DNA from: a virus
Virus record (IMG/VR): IMGVR_UViG_3300025400_000035
Span: 1 to 41,975 of that record
Reading direction: 5' to 3' (one strand)
DNA length: 41,975 bases
The notes below the pieces were generated by a model, which had not been told where the DNA came from, did not search any database, and saw nothing but the letters and a program-made list of their open reading frames with translations. The translations under genes were made by a program, and so were the position numbers. This document shows, piece after piece, positions 8,020 to 41,886 of the stretch (positions are counted from its first letter, which is position 1; each line of letters starts with the position of its first letter).

Positions 8020-8049
8020 GAGGTATTGTTAGTTAAAAATTATTTAGTT

Positions 8050-9483
8050 ATGAAACAAATTAAACCTTCACAATCATACATCGATCGTGATCGCGCTGGC
8101 CAACTTTTAAAGAAGTGGGCACCATTGCTCGACCACTCCGATGATAATACTCCAGAAATCGTAAACGAACACACTCGTTTGAACACAGCTATCCTTCTTG
8201 AAAATCAAGAAAAGTGGTGCTTTGAAGCAGCTAACGTCGCTGGCAATGCTGGCGTATTCGGCACGCTACAAGGTAACCCTGGTCAAGGCGGTCTTCAATC
8301 AAGTGACTTCTACGCACAAGGTGATGCTCGTCTACCAAAGATCCTCATTCCGATGATCCGCCGTACCTTCCCAGAATTGATCACAAACGAAATCGTTGGT
8401 GTTCAACCTATGAGTGGTCCAGTTGGTCTAGCTTTTGCATTACGTTATAAATACGATGCAGATCCACTCGGAAATACACAAGTTGACAACGGCGGCGGCT
8501 ATAGCCAATCAGCTCAAGGTCAACAAGGATGGACACATGCTTCAGATGGTAATGAAGTAGGTTGGAACTATCTCAATACTCGCTTCACGGGTATTTCTTC
8601 AACGTTCCTTTCTGGTAACGCTGACTTCAACGTATTACCAACAGATGGTGGTATTGCACAATTCTTAAGCAATTTTGAATTAACAAGCAACATCCCACAG
8701 ATGGTTGTAAGCTTCGAAAAGACAGCAGTTGAAGCTGGTACACGTCGTTTAGCAGCTCGTTGGTCCGTTGAACTTGAGCAAGATCTCAAGAACATGAACG
8801 GTATCGACATTGACAATGAATTAACGAACGCTATGTCGTACGAAATTCAAGCTGAAATCGACCGTGAAATGGTAATCCGTATGTGCCAAGTTGCTCTCAA
8901 CGCTGGTGCAGGCCAAGGTTATTCATTCTGGAACGCAGCTTCAGCTGATGGCCGTTGGTTAGGTGAACGTAACCGTGACTTCTTTGCACGTGTTATTGTT
9001 GAAGCTAACCGTGTTGCTATCCGCAATCGCCGTGGCGCAGCAAACTTCATCATTGCAACACCTCGTGTTTGCGCAATGTTTGAAATGCTTCCTGAGTTCC
9101 AATGGTTCTCAGTTAACGGTAACGTAAACACACAACCAGTTGGTATTGCTAAAGTTGGTACAGTCGGTGGTCGTTTCACGATCTACCGTGATACACGTAC
9201 AGAAGCACAATATCAGACAAATCAACGTGGTACAATACTTGAGTACGCTTTATTAGGCTACAAGGGTGCTGAATACTATGATACTGGTATTGTTTACTGC
9301 CCATATATTCCAGTGTTAGTACAACGTACAATCGGACCTAACGATTTCAGCCCACGCGTTGGTTTAATGACCCGTTATGGCGTTATTGACCACATCTTCG
9401 GTGCTGCGTTATACTATCACCTCATCATCGTTTCCGGCCTCGGTCAGGCATTCGTTCCTGGTACCGCTGCAACAATGCTGTAA
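8050..9483 (+). CDS. 23: Major capsid protein (T4 gp23-like)
   Basis: This 477-residue HK97-fold protein forms the head lattice. I start at the ATG at 8050 rather than the in-frame TTG at 8026, because the product then begins MKQIKPSQSYIDRDRAGQLL and the extra residues look non-coding. LNTAILLENQEKW followed by AANVAG is typical of gp23 in T4-like phages, and LLE at 49-51 is a candidate LxE-type cleavage site for gp21. Other family phrases are PMIRRTFPELITNEIVGVQP (near residue 100), ELEQDLKNMNGIDIDNEL and NFIIATPRVCAMFEMLPEF. Codon use is richer in C-ending codons than in the neighbouring genes, as expected for a very highly expressed gene. A terminator follows. Confidence 0.96.
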   Translation: MKQIKPSQSYIDRDRAGQLLKKWAPLLDHSDDNTPEIVNEHTRLNTAILLENQEKWCFEAANVAGNAGVFGTLQGNPGQGGLQSSDFYAQGDARLPKILIPMIRRTFPELITNEIVGVQPMSGPVGLAFALRYKYDADPLGNTQVDNGGGYSQSAQGQQGWTHASDGNEVGWNYLNTRFTGISSTFLSGNADFNVLPTDGGIAQFLSNFELTSNIPQMVVSFEKTAVEAGTRRLAARWSVELEQDLKNMNGIDIDNELTNAMSYEIQAEIDREMVIRMCQVALNAGAGQGYSFWNAASADGRWLGERNRDFFARVIVEANRVAIRNRRGAANFIIATPRVCAMFEMLPEFQWFSVNGNVNTQPVGIAKVGTVGGRFTIYRDTRTEAQYQTNQRGTILEYALLGYKGAEYYDTGIVYCPYIPVLVQRTIGPNDFSPRVGLMTRYGVIDHIFGAALYYHLIIVSGLGQAFVPGTAATML

Positions 9484-19636: not shown

Positions 19637-20580
19637 TGTCAATCAACGAACAGTTAATGAATATATGGGTAGAAAAGTATCGGCCAACTAAACTGGCCGA
19701 TATGGTTTTATCTGAGTCTTTGCGTGCGTACATAGAAGAATGTAAACGTAAAGACGAAATACCTAATATGTTGCTAGTAGGTAATGCTGGTACTGGAAAG
19801 ACCACATTAGCGAAAGTGATTATAAATGAAATACTAGATGCACAGTACCTTTACATTAACGCAAGCGAAAAGAACGGTATCGACGAAGTCCGTACCTCTA
19901 TTCTTACATTTGCTCAAACTAAAAGCTTGGATGGCAAAATTAAGGTTATCTTTCTCGACGAGTTTGACAACTTTACTGATGCGGGTCAAAGAGCTCTGCG
20001 TAATGTTATGGAAGAATATGCCGGTAATACCCGTTTTATCCTCACTGGCAACTACCTACATCGTATTATTCAACCGATCCAATCCCGCTGTCAAGTTTTT
20101 ACTGATTTTACTCCTCCTATTGGAGAATACGCTAAGCGAGTAGGTCATATACTTCGTACCGAAAAGATACAAGTGGGTAAAGATCAGATAGAAAAAATTA
20201 AAGAAGTTATTCGTTATCATTACCCAGATCTACGTAGGATTATTAACTATATTCAACGTAGCGTGGTTGATAGTGTATTGTCTATTAGTAATACGATTAA
20301 TAACGAGGGATTCGCACAGGAGATCTTGGATAAAACTGTGAACAAAGAAGACCTTACGTCTATACGTAAATTCGTTATAGAGTCGGAACAAACCTTTGGA
20401 AACGACTATCCTAAGTTAATGAAAGATCTGTTTAATGCAGTATACAAGAGCTCTATTTCAGAAGATAAAAAAAGACTTGCATTGCTGCAAGTCTCTGAAT
20501 ATCTCTATCGAAGCGCTTTAGTAATGGATCAAGAAATTAACTTTTTTTCTTGTCTTATTGCTTTAGCTTCCGTGGTGTGA
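19636..20580 (+). CDS. 44: Sliding clamp loader ATPase (T4 gp44-like)
   Basis: This 314-residue AAA+ protein loads the replicative clamp onto primed DNA together with gp62. It begins in typical fashion with IWVEKYRPTKLADMVL, then Walker A GNAGTGKT (49-56), Walker B FLDEFD (106-111), sensor 1 FILTGN and the SRC motif at 150-152, whose Arg acts in trans on the neighbouring subunit. T4 gp44 has 319 residues, nearly the same. The C-terminal helical collar domain follows. The gene is coupled to dut by a one-base overlap and shares its sigma70-like promoter. Its last 18 bp overlap the convergent gene. No gp62-like gene is visible in the window. Confidence 0.94.
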   Translation: MSINEQLMNIWVEKYRPTKLADMVLSESLRAYIEECKRKDEIPNMLLVGNAGTGKTTLAKVIINEILDAQYLYINASEKNGIDEVRTSILTFAQTKSLDGKIKVIFLDEFDNFTDAGQRALRNVMEEYAGNTRFILTGNYLHRIIQPIQSRCQVFTDFTPPIGEYAKRVGHILRTEKIQVGKDQIEKIKEVIRYHYPDLRRIINYIQRSVVDSVLSISNTINNEGFAQEILDKTVNKEDLTSIRKFVIESEQTFGNDYPKLMKDLFNAVYKSSISEDKKRLALLQVSEYLYRSALVMDQEINFFSCLIALASVV

Positions 20581-21912
20581 GTGTTTAGCTTTAATTTGCT
20601 CTTTTTTCTTAGCATCATGCTCTCTACCAGCTTGTTGTAAAGCTTTGAAATCAGCACCGTATTTCTTTTTACCGAGGTAAGCTTGAAGTCCGGATTCATC
20701 TTTCATTTTCATTTTAGCTTCTTTCATTGTATCGCATTTACAAACATTTTTACCGCAGATAGGACATACTTCTTCTGCAATAGGACCTGTGGTGTTAATC
20801 ATTTTTTTACCACCAACCTCTATTTCATCTCCCTTTTTAGAATTATGTAAAGCGCCTGTCAATGCATTACCGCCTTCTTTTTCTGTGGATTGACTACCAG
20901 GGAAATGACCGAATACTGCTTTGTAATCCTGCCCTGCTTCGGCTGGAAACTCTCCGTCATCCATATACCACATTTTATTATCCGTTGCGGTTTTTGCTCT
21001 ACGGGGATCATTATTATACTGTTTTAAATTATGAGCATAAAGATTGTGCCAGAGCTTATCTTGAAACTCTTCCCAAGACAATCCTGGTTTCATTCCAGTT
21101 AAGCAATCTTTGAAAAACGGTTTATTATAATTTGCTGGTAAAGAATTTACAAATGCATCAATCTTAGCTTCGTCATCATTTGCTACATTTTCTTCCTCAG
21201 ATTGAATTGGAGGATTACCTGTTGATTGATCCCCACCATCTCGGGAACCAACACCACCGCTCATTACACCTACGTCTTCAGTAAGAATATTAAAATAAAG
21301 ATCTTCTAAGAGAGCTTGTGACTCGTTAATAGTTTTGGCTTTTTGCATGCCTTTTACTTTTGGTGGTTGCATATCATTATGTTTGTTAGAGTGGGCAAGC
21401 TTTGTATTTTTTGTAGCTAACTCGTAATCGCCTTTTTCAACGCGAGTTTGCTTTTTCATTGACTTAGTTTGTTCGTTAGTTGCTTTACTTTTAAATTCTT
21501 TTTTGCCTTCAGCTGTACGGTCTCTCATATCTTTTTGACCTTCTGGTACAGGGGGTAAGTTTGCTCCGGTCTTTACTTCTTCTAAACAATCGACGGGAAC
21601 CGTGACTAAGTTACGCCAAAAACCTGGAGAAACTTCTTCATAGCAATCAGCAAGACCAGCTGGTGCTTTATCTGCACCTTCAGCACTATATCTTGCACCA
21701 GCACTATAGCTGTGTAGTTTACCCACTCTAATGTTATTACCAGTACTGATAATATCTTTAACACGTTGTTTAATGTTTTCACCCAGCTGCTTAAAACTAT
21801 CCATATTTTCATAGCCGGTTTTTAATTTAACCACGTCGCCTACGAGAAATCCATTGCCTTGAGTTTCGCGGTAGGCCTCCTGGAATAAAGAGTCAAACTT
21901 ACTGTTTTTCAT
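20563..21912 (-). CDS. Phage protein with CPICGKNVCKC cysteine cluster
   Basis: I do not recognise this 449-residue protein. It opens FDSLFQEAYRETQGNGFLVGDVVKLKTGYENM, a small beta-rich region reminiscent of an SH3-type barrel, and contains a Lys/Thr-rich disordered segment (about 120-200). Further on is an acidic/Asn stretch, a globular patch rich in aromatic residues (FFKDCLTGMKPGLSWEEFQD), then CPICGKNVCKC near residue 385, a possible zinc-binding cluster. The C-terminus is a basic helix with HSHHGS at the end. It is convergent with gp44 (18-bp overlap) and divergent from the baseplate unit. AGTAAGTA lies 10 nt before the start, suggesting late expression. A virion or core protein is possible. 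Confidence 0.6.
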   Translation of the reverse strand: MKNSKFDSLFQEAYRETQGNGFLVGDVVKLKTGYENMDSFKQLGENIKQRVKDIISTGNNIRVGKLHSYSAGARYSAEGADKAPAGLADCYEEVSPGFWRNLVTVPVDCLEEVKTGANLPPVPEGQKDMRDRTAEGKKEFKSKATNEQTKSMKKQTRVEKGDYELATKNTKLAHSNKHNDMQPPKVKGMQKAKTINESQALLEDLYFNILTEDVGVMSGGVGSRDGGDQSTGNPPIQSEEENVANDDEAKIDAFVNSLPANYNKPFFKDCLTGMKPGLSWEEFQDKLWHNLYAHNLKQYNNDPRRAKTATDNKMWYMDDGEFPAEAGQDYKAVFGHFPGSQSTEKEGGNALTGALHNSKKGDEIEVGGKKMINTTGPIAEEVCPICGKNVCKCDTMKEAKMKMKDESGLQAYLGKKKYGADFKALQQAGREHDAKKKEQIKAKHSHHGS

Positions 21913-37883: not shown

Positions 37884-38345
37884 TTATTCTGTCTCCCATT
37901 TATCTTTAAAGAAGTGTATTATGGTATCGTAATGATCAAGTTGGTTCTTACTAATGCATGTCTTCTTAATCCTGTTCATCATACTCTCTTTGGATATCTT
38001 TCTATTGTACCACAATTGTAGGTACCTCCCATACCACCACCTACACAATTGATCAATCTGTTGTACCCTCTCCAGTTCATCTTGTATCACTTGTTCCTCT
38101 TCAGTTAAAGTGTGACTGATGTTACTTCTTATGAAATGTATCCTGACATCTTCATATATGTCTGGGTTGTGCTTCTCCACAATCTCCAGTACCTTACAAT
38201 AAGGATTGTTCAATTGATATGTGATCAGCTTTTGTGCCACATCATGTATCTTTAGCTCTTTAACCATCTTAGGGCTCAAAGGGCGTGGGTATGGATCCAG
38301 GTCATCATAACTACTACCACCAAATCCCATCCATGATTCACTCAT
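37884..38345 (-). CDS. Early phage protein (153 aa), unknown function
   Basis: I do not recognise this protein. It starts MSESWMGFGGSSYDDLDPYP, has a helical region HDVAQKLITYQLNNPYCKVL, a TEEEQVIQDELERVQQIDQL segment, then a Trp/Tyr-rich RWWYGRYLQLWYN and a basic end. The aromatic helix could mediate protein binding. It has its own early promoter at 38386-38414 and a long leader of about 35 nt with an AGGAAAG element 14 nt before the ATG, so its translation signals are weaker than those of its neighbours. Confidence 0.6.
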   Translation of the reverse strand: MSESWMGFGGSSYDDLDPYPRPLSPKMVKELKIHDVAQKLITYQLNNPYCKVLEIVEKHNPDIYEDVRIHFIRSNISHTLTEEEQVIQDELERVQQIDQLCRWWYGRYLQLWYNRKISKESMMNRIKKTCISKNQLDHYDTIIHFFKDKWETE

Positions 38346-38447: not shown

Positions 38448-38777
38448 TTATACTTCTCTATCATGGTAAGAGTACTCTGCTAAGTTACCATAAAAATCGC
38501 CTATGTACCTCTCATAATTTGTAGTGTTTAATTGATTCTTATTGCGTACTTGTCTGTATAGCTTTTCAAAGTTTGGATCATTTGATAGAGCTTTAATTGC
38601 TTTAAAGATGTCGTTGATCTTACTTGCATAGGCCTGTACAGAGGCTCTGTACTGCTGTGCAGCTGCAGCTCTGTCACCGCCTGGAGCAGGTGCTGGTGTA
38701 CGGGCTGGAGCTTCACTCATAGCAGGGTTCATGGTTTCAAATAACTGAACAAGTTTGTTAAAGCTTTTATCACGCAT
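38448..38777 (-). CDS. Small protein with Pro/Ala linker (109 aa)
   Basis: I start at the ATG at 38777, because an AATAAGTA late-like octamer lies 7 nt upstream (the in-frame TTG at 38795 would overlap it). The product begins MRDKSFNKLVQLFETMNPAM, then has a Pro/Ala linker (EAPARTPAPAPGGDRAAAAQ) and a helical C-terminal part with NTTNYERYIGDFYGNLAEYS. The linker resembles that of the small protein at 39952, although no common domain is seen. Late-type expression inside an early block is unusual. Function unknown. Confidence 0.58.
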   Translation of the reverse strand: MRDKSFNKLVQLFETMNPAMSEAPARTPAPAPGGDRAAAAQQYRASVQAYASKINDIFKAIKALSNDPNFEKLYRQVRNKNQLNTTNYERYIGDFYGNLAEYSYHDREV

Positions 38778-38784
38778 AATGTAA

Positions 38785-38792
38785 TACTTATT
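38785..38792 (-). promoter_or_regulatory. Late-promoter-like octamer AATAAGTA in early region
   Basis: It lies 7 nt before the ATG at 38777. It is the only late octamer seen in the early block. Confidence 0.35.
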
Positions 38793-38812
38793 CAATCCCG
38801 TTACATTTTCTA

Positions 38813-39031
38813 TCAGTTCTTTCCAGTTAATTTGAGCTGGATGTGTTCCATGAGCTCTCTCAATATCAGCTCATAGCTCTGCTTGTGACCTGTAACATAC
38901 GCTTGTCTGGCTTGAATGAGTAACACTTGCTGCTCCATTGTATTGACTAGATCAACTGGTACATTGTGGGTGGTAATGCTTGATAGCTGGTCATGAAGGT
39001 GCATCAAGCTTTCGTCAAATCTATTGATCAT
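38813..39031 (-). CDS. Small helical early protein (72 aa)
   Basis: Unknown function. MINRFDESLMHLHDQLSSI and MEQQVLLIQARQAYVTGHKQ suggest two helices, followed by a helical LRELMEHIQLKLTGKN end. It starts one base after the stop of the upstream gene (TAATATG), so it is probably translated by coupling from the promoter at 39294. Confidence 0.65.
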   Translation of the reverse strand: MINRFDESLMHLHDQLSSITTHNVPVDLVNTMEQQVLLIQARQAYVTGHKQSYELILRELMEHIQLKLTGKN

Positions 39032-39032
39032 A

Positions 39033-39287
39033 TTAGTAATGGTCTTTATGTCTTACATCATTTACATTATCTGAAGTGCAATCATATGTGGATGTATTTT
39101 CATATGATATGGTTACAGGATTACCTTCTTCAATACTGGTAATGTGATTGACTTGTTGAATGACAGCATCAATTAAGCCATCAGCTTCTATGATTTCATT
39201 AGCCAGGTCATATGACTCAGCTGTGCAATATACTGTATCACTTGCTGTAAAGATAATGTAGGTTTGTTTTAAGTCTCTCATTTTCAT
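39033..39287 (-). CDS. Small early protein (84 aa)
   Basis: Unknown function. MKMRDLKQTYIIFTASDTVY followed by CTAESYDLANEIIEADGLID indicates a beta-alpha unit, then a Ser/Thr-rich acidic stretch (ENTSTYDCTSDNVND). The ATG lies 6 nt after the -10 of an early promoter, so the mRNA would have almost no leader. Confidence 0.65.
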   Translation of the reverse strand: MKMRDLKQTYIIFTASDTVYCTAESYDLANEIIEADGLIDAVIQQVNHITSIEEGNPVTISYENTSTYDCTSDNVNDVRHKDHY

Positions 39288-39293
39288 AATACT

Positions 39294-39322
39294 ATTATGG
39301 TAACTTTATTGATTGAGTGCAA
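39294..39322 (-). promoter_or_regulatory. Early promoter TTGCAC-17-CATAAT
   Basis: The -10 is at 39294-39299 and the -35 at 39317-39322. The spacer ends AAGTTAC, as in the next two promoters. Confidence 0.65.
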
Positions 39323-39324
39323 CA

Positions 39325-39537
39325 CTATAATGTCACACAACATTCCACTTCATCTCTCACTTCAATACAATTCATTTTTGAAACTACACAATCACCTTCA
39401 ATGATTGGATGATCTACCAAGTAGCCAGTCTGACCTTCCTTCCTTACCTCCATTACAGTACCCACCTTCAAGTCAATCCAGGTTGGGAATTCAGCTGCCA
39501 GGAATGTATTAGTTGGTTTGGTTATCATTATTTTCAT
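39325..39537 (-). CDS. Small beta-rich early protein (70 aa)
   Basis: Unknown function. The protein MKIMITKPTNTFLAAEFPTW has IDLKVGTVMEVRKEGQTGYL and IIEGDCVVSKMNCIEVRDEV, a pattern of short strands like a small SH3-like barrel. Its first 12 codons are identical to the leader ORF at 39749-39793, which is an incomplete copy. The only GAATTC site I found in the window (39487-39492) lies inside this gene. The ATG is 6 nt after the -10 of its promoter. Confidence 0.65.
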   Translation of the reverse strand: MKIMITKPTNTFLAAEFPTWIDLKVGTVMEVRKEGQTGYLVDHPIIEGDCVVSKMNCIEVRDEVECCVTL

Positions 39538-39544
39538 AATACAA
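39502..39544 (-). repeat. 43-bp direct repeat, copy A (with gene start)
   Basis: Bases 39502-39544 are identical to 39758-39800. The repeat covers the region just after the -10 element, the ATG and the first 12 codons of the 70-aa gene. Confidence 0.85.
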
Positions 39545-39572
39545 GTATGGTTACTTAATGAGATGGTTGCAA
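39544..39572 (-). promoter_or_regulatory. Early promoter TTGCAA-17-CATACT
   Basis: The -10 is at 39544-39549 and the -35 at 39567-39572; spacer ends AAGTAAC. Confidence 0.65.
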
Positions 39573-39752: not shown

Positions 39753-39793
39753 AAGAAGAATGTATTAGTTGGTTTGGTTATCATTATTTTCAT
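39749..39793 (-). CDS. 14-codon leader ORF from duplicated gene start
   Basis: ATG at 39793 opens MKIMITKPTNTFFL, then TGA. The first 12 codons duplicate those of the gene at 39537. The stop overlaps the ATG of the 58-aa gene, so ribosomes could reinitiate. It is a remnant of a duplicated gene start, possibly kept as a translation leader. Confidence 0.55.
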   Translation of the reverse strand: MKIMITKPTNTFFL

Positions 39794-39800
39794 AATACAA
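39758..39800 (-). repeat. 43-bp direct repeat, copy B (leader ORF)
   Basis: Identical to 39502-39544, with the adjacent promoters related but not identical. The two copies are 256 bp apart in the same direction. Confidence 0.85.
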
Positions 39801-39828
39801 TAATGGTAACTTATTGTGTCAAGTGCAA
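39800..39828 (-). promoter_or_regulatory. Early promoter TTGCAC-17-CATTAT
   Basis: The -10 is at 39800-39805 and the -35 at 39823-39828; the spacer ends AAGTTAC. It drives the 14-codon leader and the 58-aa gene. Confidence 0.63.
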
Positions 39829-40617: not shown

Positions 40618-41298
40618 TTAGGTACTTAACACGGTAGGTGCAAGCTTCTTTTGTTTAAGTGTATTGAAATATTGTCTTTGTTTGTTCTTGTGAGTATCCA
40701 CTTGACCGATGAAAGGTATTAAGTCTTGGTAGTTCATGGATAAACCCAAAGTGCTCTTGAAGATCCCAAAGATCTCCTCTCTACTGAACCCGCCTGGTGA
40801 GTAATAGAACACGGCATTGGGCTTGATCTTGTGCATGGTAGTACCAAATGAATGGAGCACGTTGCCTTCCACCGCTCCTTCCCCGGTCATGAATGTAACA
40901 TACTTGACTGCTGGATTGATATACTCACATACCATAAAGTTCTTGTTCCACCTTTCATAAGCATTACCGGTCTTGCCTTGGTACTTGGCTTCAAAGGCGG
41001 CGAGGAGCTTTCTCGTACCGTCTGGTTGTCTTTCAAACCACATCCCTCCATCTGGCACCACTCCTATAGTGTCGCCCAAGTGGGAGAGCTCTTGTAACCG
41101 GTTCTTTTCTACAGCCTTCTCTCTTGAACCAGCATTGGAGTGGCCTCTCTCATACAGGAGCACGGTGCCTATAGGCACGACAAGCCACTTCAAGTACTCT
41201 TTAATGGCTTCTGATACTACTTTCACTCCATCATCAAGTTCCTTGGATTGGATGCTTGTTGCGGAAGTGCCTGGTTGAACTCCTATTTGTTTGCTCAT
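40618..41298 (-). CDS. EcoRI-family type II restriction endonuclease
   Basis: This 226-residue protein matches the core of EcoRI as I recall it. VPDGGMWFERQPDG (Asp83, equivalent to Asp91), LAAFEAKYQGK (Glu103 and Lys105, equivalent to Glu111 and Lys113) and GNAYERWNKN (111-120, like GNAIERSHKN, whose Glu144/Arg145 read AATT) appear in the right order. EcoRI has 277 residues; the present protein lacks the roughly 25-residue segment between the catalytic Lys and the GNA motif. It should cut at GAATTC or a related AATT-centred site. No methyltransferase gene is visible in the window. It has a strong sigma70-like promoter overlapped by an inverted repeat. G+C is higher than in its neighbours. 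Confidence 0.85.
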   Translation of the reverse strand: MSKQIGVQPGTSATSIQSKELDDGVKVVSEAIKEYLKWLVVPIGTVLLYERGHSNAGSREKAVEKNRLQELSHLGDTIGVVPDGGMWFERQPDGTRKLLAAFEAKYQGKTGNAYERWNKNFMVCEYINPAVKYVTFMTGEGAVEGNVLHSFGTTMHKIKPNAVFYYSPGGFSREEIFGIFKSTLGLSMNYQDLIPFIGQVDTHKNKQRQYFNTLKQKKLAPTVLST

Positions 41299-41307
41299 TT
41301 CTTTATT

Positions 41308-41325
41308 GTTCTATCATTATAGAAC
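41308..41325 (-). promoter_or_regulatory. Inverted repeat (operator candidate) over endonuclease promoter
   Basis: GTTCTAT and ATAGAAC form a perfect 7-bp dyad with a 4-bp centre. The -10 TATAAT of the endonuclease promoter (41316-41321) lies inside it. Confidence 0.5.
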
Positions 41326-41349: not shown

Positions 41350-41389
41350 AAGAGCGGTAGGGTGAAAATAAAAAAGCCCTACCGCTCTT
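41350..41389 (-). terminator. Terminator after AP2-like gene
   Basis: A perfect 13-bp stem (AAGAGCGGTAGGG, 41350-41362, with 41377-41389), 14-nt loop, and a T run on the minus strand. It separates the gene at 41433 from the endonuclease gene. Confidence 0.85.
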
Positions 41390-41714: not shown

Positions 41715-41886
41715 ATATTATCTAATGTTGTTTATTATTATCATTTACTTTACTAAAAAGTCAAGCACTATTTGTTATTATTTTTGTTATCTGTTGTAAG
41801 GTTGTGTTCCTTATTGATAAGACAAGTATGGTTACTTTTACCCAAACGGTCAAGCTTTATTTTTAACACGCGTCCTTTTTTCTAAC
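41715..41886 (-). promoter_or_regulatory. Tandem early promoters and leader before AP2-like gene
   Basis: There are two promoters in the same direction: TTGACC-17-CATACT (41825-41853), with the spacer ending AAGTAAC, and TTGACT-16-GATAAT (41737-41764). The leader between them has no ATG-initiated frame of note and contains AATAAGGAAC, like the 37807 leader. Confidence 0.6.

Follow-up and report, generated by a model that had tools for sequence, protein, structure and literature searches.

An EcoRI-like nuclease gene in T4-like phages is associated with depletion of AATT in the genomes that carry it

The restriction systems of chloroviruses and marseilleviruses protect the viral genome by methylation and are not known to do so by erasure of recognition sites. 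One of the Chlorella virus enzymes is CviAII, whose specificity is CATG. The Chlorella virus enzymes CviAI and CviAII and the GATC system of marseillevirus each combine a virus-encoded restriction enzyme with a methyltransferase (PMC7253447, PMC4081073), as do most relatives of the gene described here. These systems belong to eukaryotic viruses, however, and have other specificities (GATC). The host DNA of marseilleviruses is not degraded, and a role in co-infections has been suggested (PMC7253447); the giant-virus systems are likewise suggested to take part in competition between viruses. On bacteriophages, restriction enzymes are reported to be rare (PMC4081073). Our literature search, outside which most subscription papers lie, found no precedent for phage-encoded restriction enzymes with self-avoidance, and none for AATT.

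The closest described enzyme is EcoRI (with RsrI and LraI; type IIP, G/AATTC), with which the fold, the PD...ExK residues and the GNAxER motif of the phage protein are in register. EcoRI has 277 amino acids, whereas the members of the phage-encoded family mostly have 165-230 and have no insert between EAKxQG and GNAxER; the predicted site of the phage enzyme is AATT instead of G/AATTC. MunI (CAATTG) recognises a site that shares the inner AATT with that of EcoRI (PMC5896346), but it is absent from the profile matches and from the listed fold matches of the phage family. EcoRI-family enzymes themselves are classical. In the literature that we searched, we found no description of a phage branch of the family whose site is apparently shortened and whose genome is purged of AATT.

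The stretch of DNA analysed here (the window) comprises an entire virus record, a linear fragment of 41,975 bases. Matches to PHROGs for the portal, the major head protein and a baseplate wedge identify the phage as T4-like. The window also encodes PhoH, ribonucleotide reductase subunits, a clamp-loader-type AAA ATPase and glycosyltransferases, and its capsid protein is ~35% identical to those of the best-matching named phages, mostly cyanophages. A first-pass annotation had proposed an EcoRI-family endonuclease gene at its right end. The reading frame is present and intact (226 amino acids, with the ATG at 41298 and the stop ending at 40618), and the strand is corrected to minus. The features of the locus are as follows:

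40618 to 41298, minus strand: EcoRI-like restriction endonuclease, predicted AATT cutter (profile of 39 relatives, structure model, PHROG_2400)
41050 to 41055, minus strand: codons of P82-D83, predicted first catalytic acidic residue, EcoRI D91 (translation, family alignment, profile alignment)
40984 to 40992, minus strand: codons of E103-A104-K105, predicted active-site ExK, EcoRI E111-A112-K113 (translation; E and K invariant)
40951 to 40968, minus strand: codons of G111-N-A-Y-E-R116, GNAxER motif, EcoRI 140-145, predicted to contact the AATT core (translation, alignments, PMC4081073)
41316 to 41343, minus strand: possible sigma-70-like promoter, TTGATT-16-TATAAT, immediately 5' of the nuclease gene
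41350 to 41389, minus strand: perfect inverted repeat of 13 bp, a hairpin, in the interval between the nuclease gene and its upstream neighbour

The promoter-like sequence overlaps an inverted repeat, GTTCTAT-CATT-ATAGAAC (41308-41325); promoter-like matches in this region are no commoner than in shuffled sequence. Elsewhere in the window, the sequence AAGTWACCATWMTWGTMTTAT occurs four times, always on the minus strand, at 39286-39306, 39536-39556, 39792-39812 and 41817-41837, in a cluster of small genes. The chance expectation is 0.1 copies, and these are candidate early promoters.

As a single query, the window protein gave no convincing match in Pfam, NCBIfam or the PDB sequences, and none to EcoRI; the Pfam EcoRI model did not match it either. 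Its sole match was PHROG_2400, a family of unknown function, and an initial scan of IMG/VR with this protein as the only query found nothing. Using tblastn, we detected relatives in S-RIM2, S-BM1 and S-CREM2. The S-CREM2 relative (gp11) belongs, like PHROG_2400, to the same protein family as the window nuclease and carries the annotation 'restriction endonuclease EcoRI'; this is an annotation only, and EcoRI is not mentioned in the main text of the S-CREM2 genome paper (PMC10665884). The gene just upstream of it in S-CREM2 (L003 17287-19896) is annotated as CRISPR-associated endonuclease Cas9/Csn1 and as a virion protein. With a four-member alignment as the query, relatives were recovered at 80 IMG/VR loci. 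No relative was found among 84,980 prokaryote genomes searched with a few patterns.

A profile built from 39 family members had five matches among the PDB sequences up to an E-value of 10, all of them EcoRI (best E-value 3.2e-5), and its alignment to EcoRI places PDGG, EaKxQG and GNAIER in register. An AlphaFold2 model of the window protein (mean pLDDT 86.5, pTM 0.81) gave the same result: the only PDB matches below an E-value of 1e-3 in Foldseek were five EcoRI entries (best 1.4e-5), at modest TM-scores of 0.46-0.48. By profile and predicted fold, the window protein is thus a divergent EcoRI-family endonuclease. The family profile and the structure model were needed for this link because the Pfam and single-sequence searches had failed, so the family assignment of the first-pass annotation holds by a route other than the Pfam EcoRI model. 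Its description of the EcoRI core residues, in order and with a short loop, agrees with the alignment. The residues invariant in all 39 members include P82, D83, E103, K105, Q107, G111, N112, A113, E115 and R116, and the phage proteins lack the ~21 residues that separate EAKHQGK from GNAIER in EcoRI. An EcoRI fold put to another use that needs no sequence specificity, such as recombination or genome processing, might be considered, since overall similarity to EcoRI is weak and the assignment comes from sequence and a model. The conservation of GNAxER and the site-specific depletion of AATT described below make this highly improbable.

The motif that is kept and the segment that is lost both bear on specificity. 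EcoRI wedges A142 into the AATT core and bonds to the AT pairs through this residue, N141 and R145; under star conditions the enzyme cuts N/AATTN (PMC4081073). With GNAxER kept and the preceding segment missing, the window enzyme would most likely read AATT alone, making permanent the specificity that EcoRI shows under star conditions.

The sequence of the window itself points to the same four bases:

1 to 41975, no strand: AATT-depleted stretch, nearly the whole window, 95 sites against 282 expected (composition counts, codon shuffles)

The expectation is derived from trinucleotide composition, and the resulting O/E of 0.34 (z -15.8) is the lowest of all 4-mers in the window. In 1000 synonymous-codon shuffles, which preserve proteins and codon usage, coding sequences contained 321.5 +/- 12.4 AATT; the real ones contain 86 (z -19). 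Under the same shuffles GATC and TATA are near expectation and CATG is slightly low, while GAATTC, CAATTG, AAATTT and TAATTA are all reduced. The first-pass annotation had counted one GAATTC (at 39487), 15 AATTC on the plus strand and at least three CAATTG near 38 kb; we obtain the same numbers, the three CAATTG lying at 38013, 38046 and 38211. It had also linked the enzyme to a depletion of its site. The link stands, but codon shuffles and flank ratios favour AATT over GAATTC as the depleted unit. Depletion ratios by flanking context range from 0.10 to 0.39. AATT was preferred to GAATTC (0.13) as the unit, AAATTT (0.15) and TAATTA (0.10) being as low, and a site restricted to RAATTY or to YAATTR was rejected with every flanking context of AATT depleted.

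Depletion is uneven along the window. AATT is absent from two baseplate/tail genes at 22.4-26.5 kb, with one copy in the next gene, and from the nuclease gene and its neighbours at 40.4-41.7 kb. The capsid gene and several of the small genes at 38-39.5 kb have near-normal numbers. By position, AATT is close to its normal frequency in several genes in 8026-9483, 20563-21912 and 38448-39537, and hardly occurs in the tail genes at 22.4-28.4 kb. As AATT is near normal in some genes and almost missing from the tail genes, some window genes appear to have been exchanged recently; the patchiness suggests import by recombination with phages that lack the nuclease. The nuclease gene could alternatively have survived by chance while decaying or already inactive, with AATT depletion as the fossil of past activity. 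The 95 sites in a window with no partner methyltransferase in view would fit such a remnant. The open reading frame, the intact invariant residues and the lack of AATT in and around the gene do not, and we consider a remnant quite improbable.

AATT depletion is associated with the nuclease gene across many phages. Relatives of the nuclease occur at ~80 phage loci. Among the 47 carrier loci of at least 8 kb, the median AATT O/E is 0.36, 70% are below 0.5, and AATT ranks first for depletion among all 4-mers in 24. For 52 loci sharing the capsid gene of the window, the median is 0.95 and 2% are below 0.5. Even the nearest capsid kin of the window (93-96% identical capsid protein) have values of 0.82-0.90, against 0.34 in the window. 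In two carriers AATT is missing entirely: the 304 sites expected in 100.5 kb of G028 and the 194 expected in 60.5 kb of G030 are all absent. Other carriers show intermediate values (S-RIM2 0.27, G031 0.38, G032 0.43, G037 0.65, S-CREM2 0.66), and depletion is weak in the jumbo phages G033 (0.82) and G034 (0.92) and in L078 (0.95). Sixteen complete cyanophages, in which a whole-record profile search found no nuclease gene, range from 0.71 to 1.01 (counted over 40-80 kb of each). The difference between carrier genomes and these 16 has a Mann-Whitney p of 5e-4, an optimistic value that ignores the relatedness of the genomes, which are not independent. Depletion recurs on branches that lie far apart in the nuclease tree. 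Cyanophage control fragments anchored on gp6 are bimodal, about a quarter being AATT-poor, and no nuclease was found within the AATT-poor fragments searched, which are short and may be exceptions to the association.

Phage avoidance of restriction sites is usually read as defence against hosts. The phages might be evading an AATT-specific restriction enzyme of their hosts, in which case their own gene would be incidental or would have come from such a host. Phages are known to avoid the sites that host enzymes cut (PMC6286503), and the same kinship group misses other palindromes (CTAG, TCGA, CATG; GTAC in S-SM1) for which no enzyme was identified. However, depletion tracks the gene across differing phages as well as among close kin, and an incidental gene would not predict that every catalytic and AATT-contacting residue is kept. 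The lack of relatives in the prokaryote genomes, within the few search patterns used, is a further point against this reading. Host restriction as the explanation is therefore improbable in our judgement.

The first-pass annotation had spoken of a lone restriction enzyme; this description fits the window and a small number of its relatives, not the family as a whole. A D12 (DpnM/Dam-like) methyltransferase gene directly follows the nuclease on the same strand at 57 of 68 informative carrier loci, and the two often overlap, as in S-BM1; in S-RIM2 the nuclease is SWTG_00030 and the adjacent methyltransferase SWTG_00032. The nearest PDB matches of the D12 enzymes are the DpnII and Dam methylases, and the nuclease-adjacent D12 genes group apart from the other D12 genes of the same phages (SH-aLRT 94). 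We found no methyltransferase of the D12 (PF02086) or N6_N4 (PF01555) type in the 42-kb linear record of the window, in agreement with the first-pass annotation. The same search of G028, G029 and G030, incomplete records of 74-112 kb, recovered neither type, and the stretches read in these three contain no AATT. G036 lacks an adjacent methyltransferase and has two D12 genes elsewhere. AATT depletion does not differ between loci with and loci lacking an adjacent methyltransferase (p 0.48), and no trade-off of methylation against erasure is apparent; the idea that carriers without one are more depleted fails as a general rule, though the zero-AATT genomes have none.

These observations bear on whether the locus is a conventional phage restriction-modification pair, in which a Dam-like partner methylates AATT, the copy belonging to the window lies outside the 42 kb, and depletion reflects imperfect methylation. 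The adjacent methyltransferase of most relatives, its separate grouping among phage D12 enzymes and the distant D12 genes of G036 are in its favour. On the other side are the three nuclease carriers with neither methyltransferase type and no AATT where read, and the resemblance of the D12 enzymes to DpnII and Dam methylases, which makes AATT no more than a candidate target. We regard a conventional pair as rather unlikely. No result spoke against the first-pass reading in the ways which that annotation had named (no match to EcoRI-family profiles, a misplaced catalytic residue, or normal GAATTC frequency together with a methyltransferase elsewhere), and a methyltransferase may still lie elsewhere in the incomplete genome.

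Judging from sequence, the gene probably encodes an AATT-specific phage restriction enzyme that would attack the DNA of hosts or rivals, the phage itself being spared through loss of its sites, through methylation or through both. The protein would be a compact type II endonuclease of the EcoRI family, with PD...ExK and an AATT-reading GNAxER, made during infection and cutting host or competing DNA at the frequent AATT sites. The phage would tolerate its own nuclease by selection having removed AATT from its genome, wholly in some carriers, and in most relatives the dedicated Dam-family methyltransferase next door is likely a second protection. Two uses would fit such a nuclease: breakdown of host DNA, or exclusion of rival phages. 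The 95 AATT sites retained in the window are a counterpoint, since a phage with so many sites and no visible methyltransferase would be expected to suffer from an active enzyme that cuts AATT. Either a methyltransferase lies in the missing part of the genome, or the enzyme is late, weak or compartmented, or purging is still under way.

Close relatives without the nuclease gene wholly miss other 4-bp palindromes. CTAG is absent from the 191-kb S-SM2 genome (299 expected; W13: L327, L211, L328, L329, L212, L330-L334) and from the 316-kb record of the jumbo phage G034 (594 expected; L011, L237, L238, L338-L351), which also carries an EcoRI-like gene. It is likewise missing from G068 (L321, L322), G071 and L324. 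Single lineages wholly lack TCGA (ACG-2014d L201/L202, L248), GTAC (S-SM1 L209/L210) or CATG (L251). Other enzymes used in the same way, or restriction by hosts, may explain these absences. Genes common to S-SM2, G034 and G068 were searched for a CTAG enzyme, and none of them was convincing as a candidate nuclease. Two further word biases were observed in this material. CCGG is absent and AGCT/AGCC (RGCY-like) strongly depleted in most marine cyanophages, with or without the nuclease (for example L002, L014, L181-L184, L209), and the non-palindromic GAAC is strongly depleted (O/E 0.13-0.24) in the related cyanophages syn9 (L205/L206) and S-MbCM6 (L199/L200).

We tentatively suggest that T4-like phages of marine and freshwater habitats carry exchangeable 4-bp cutters, and that each lineage erases the site of its own cutter, with or without methylating it as well. 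The EcoRI-like enzyme and AATT would then be the first solved case. If the proposed role of the nuclease is correct, the total absence of a palindrome from a phage genome would predict an enzyme possibly encoded by the phage itself, the family would provide a compact set of predicted AATT enzymes, and phages with unmodified DNA could selectively attack the DNA of hosts or rivals. Site erasure in place of methylation would then be a second route by which the bearer of a restriction enzyme protects itself.
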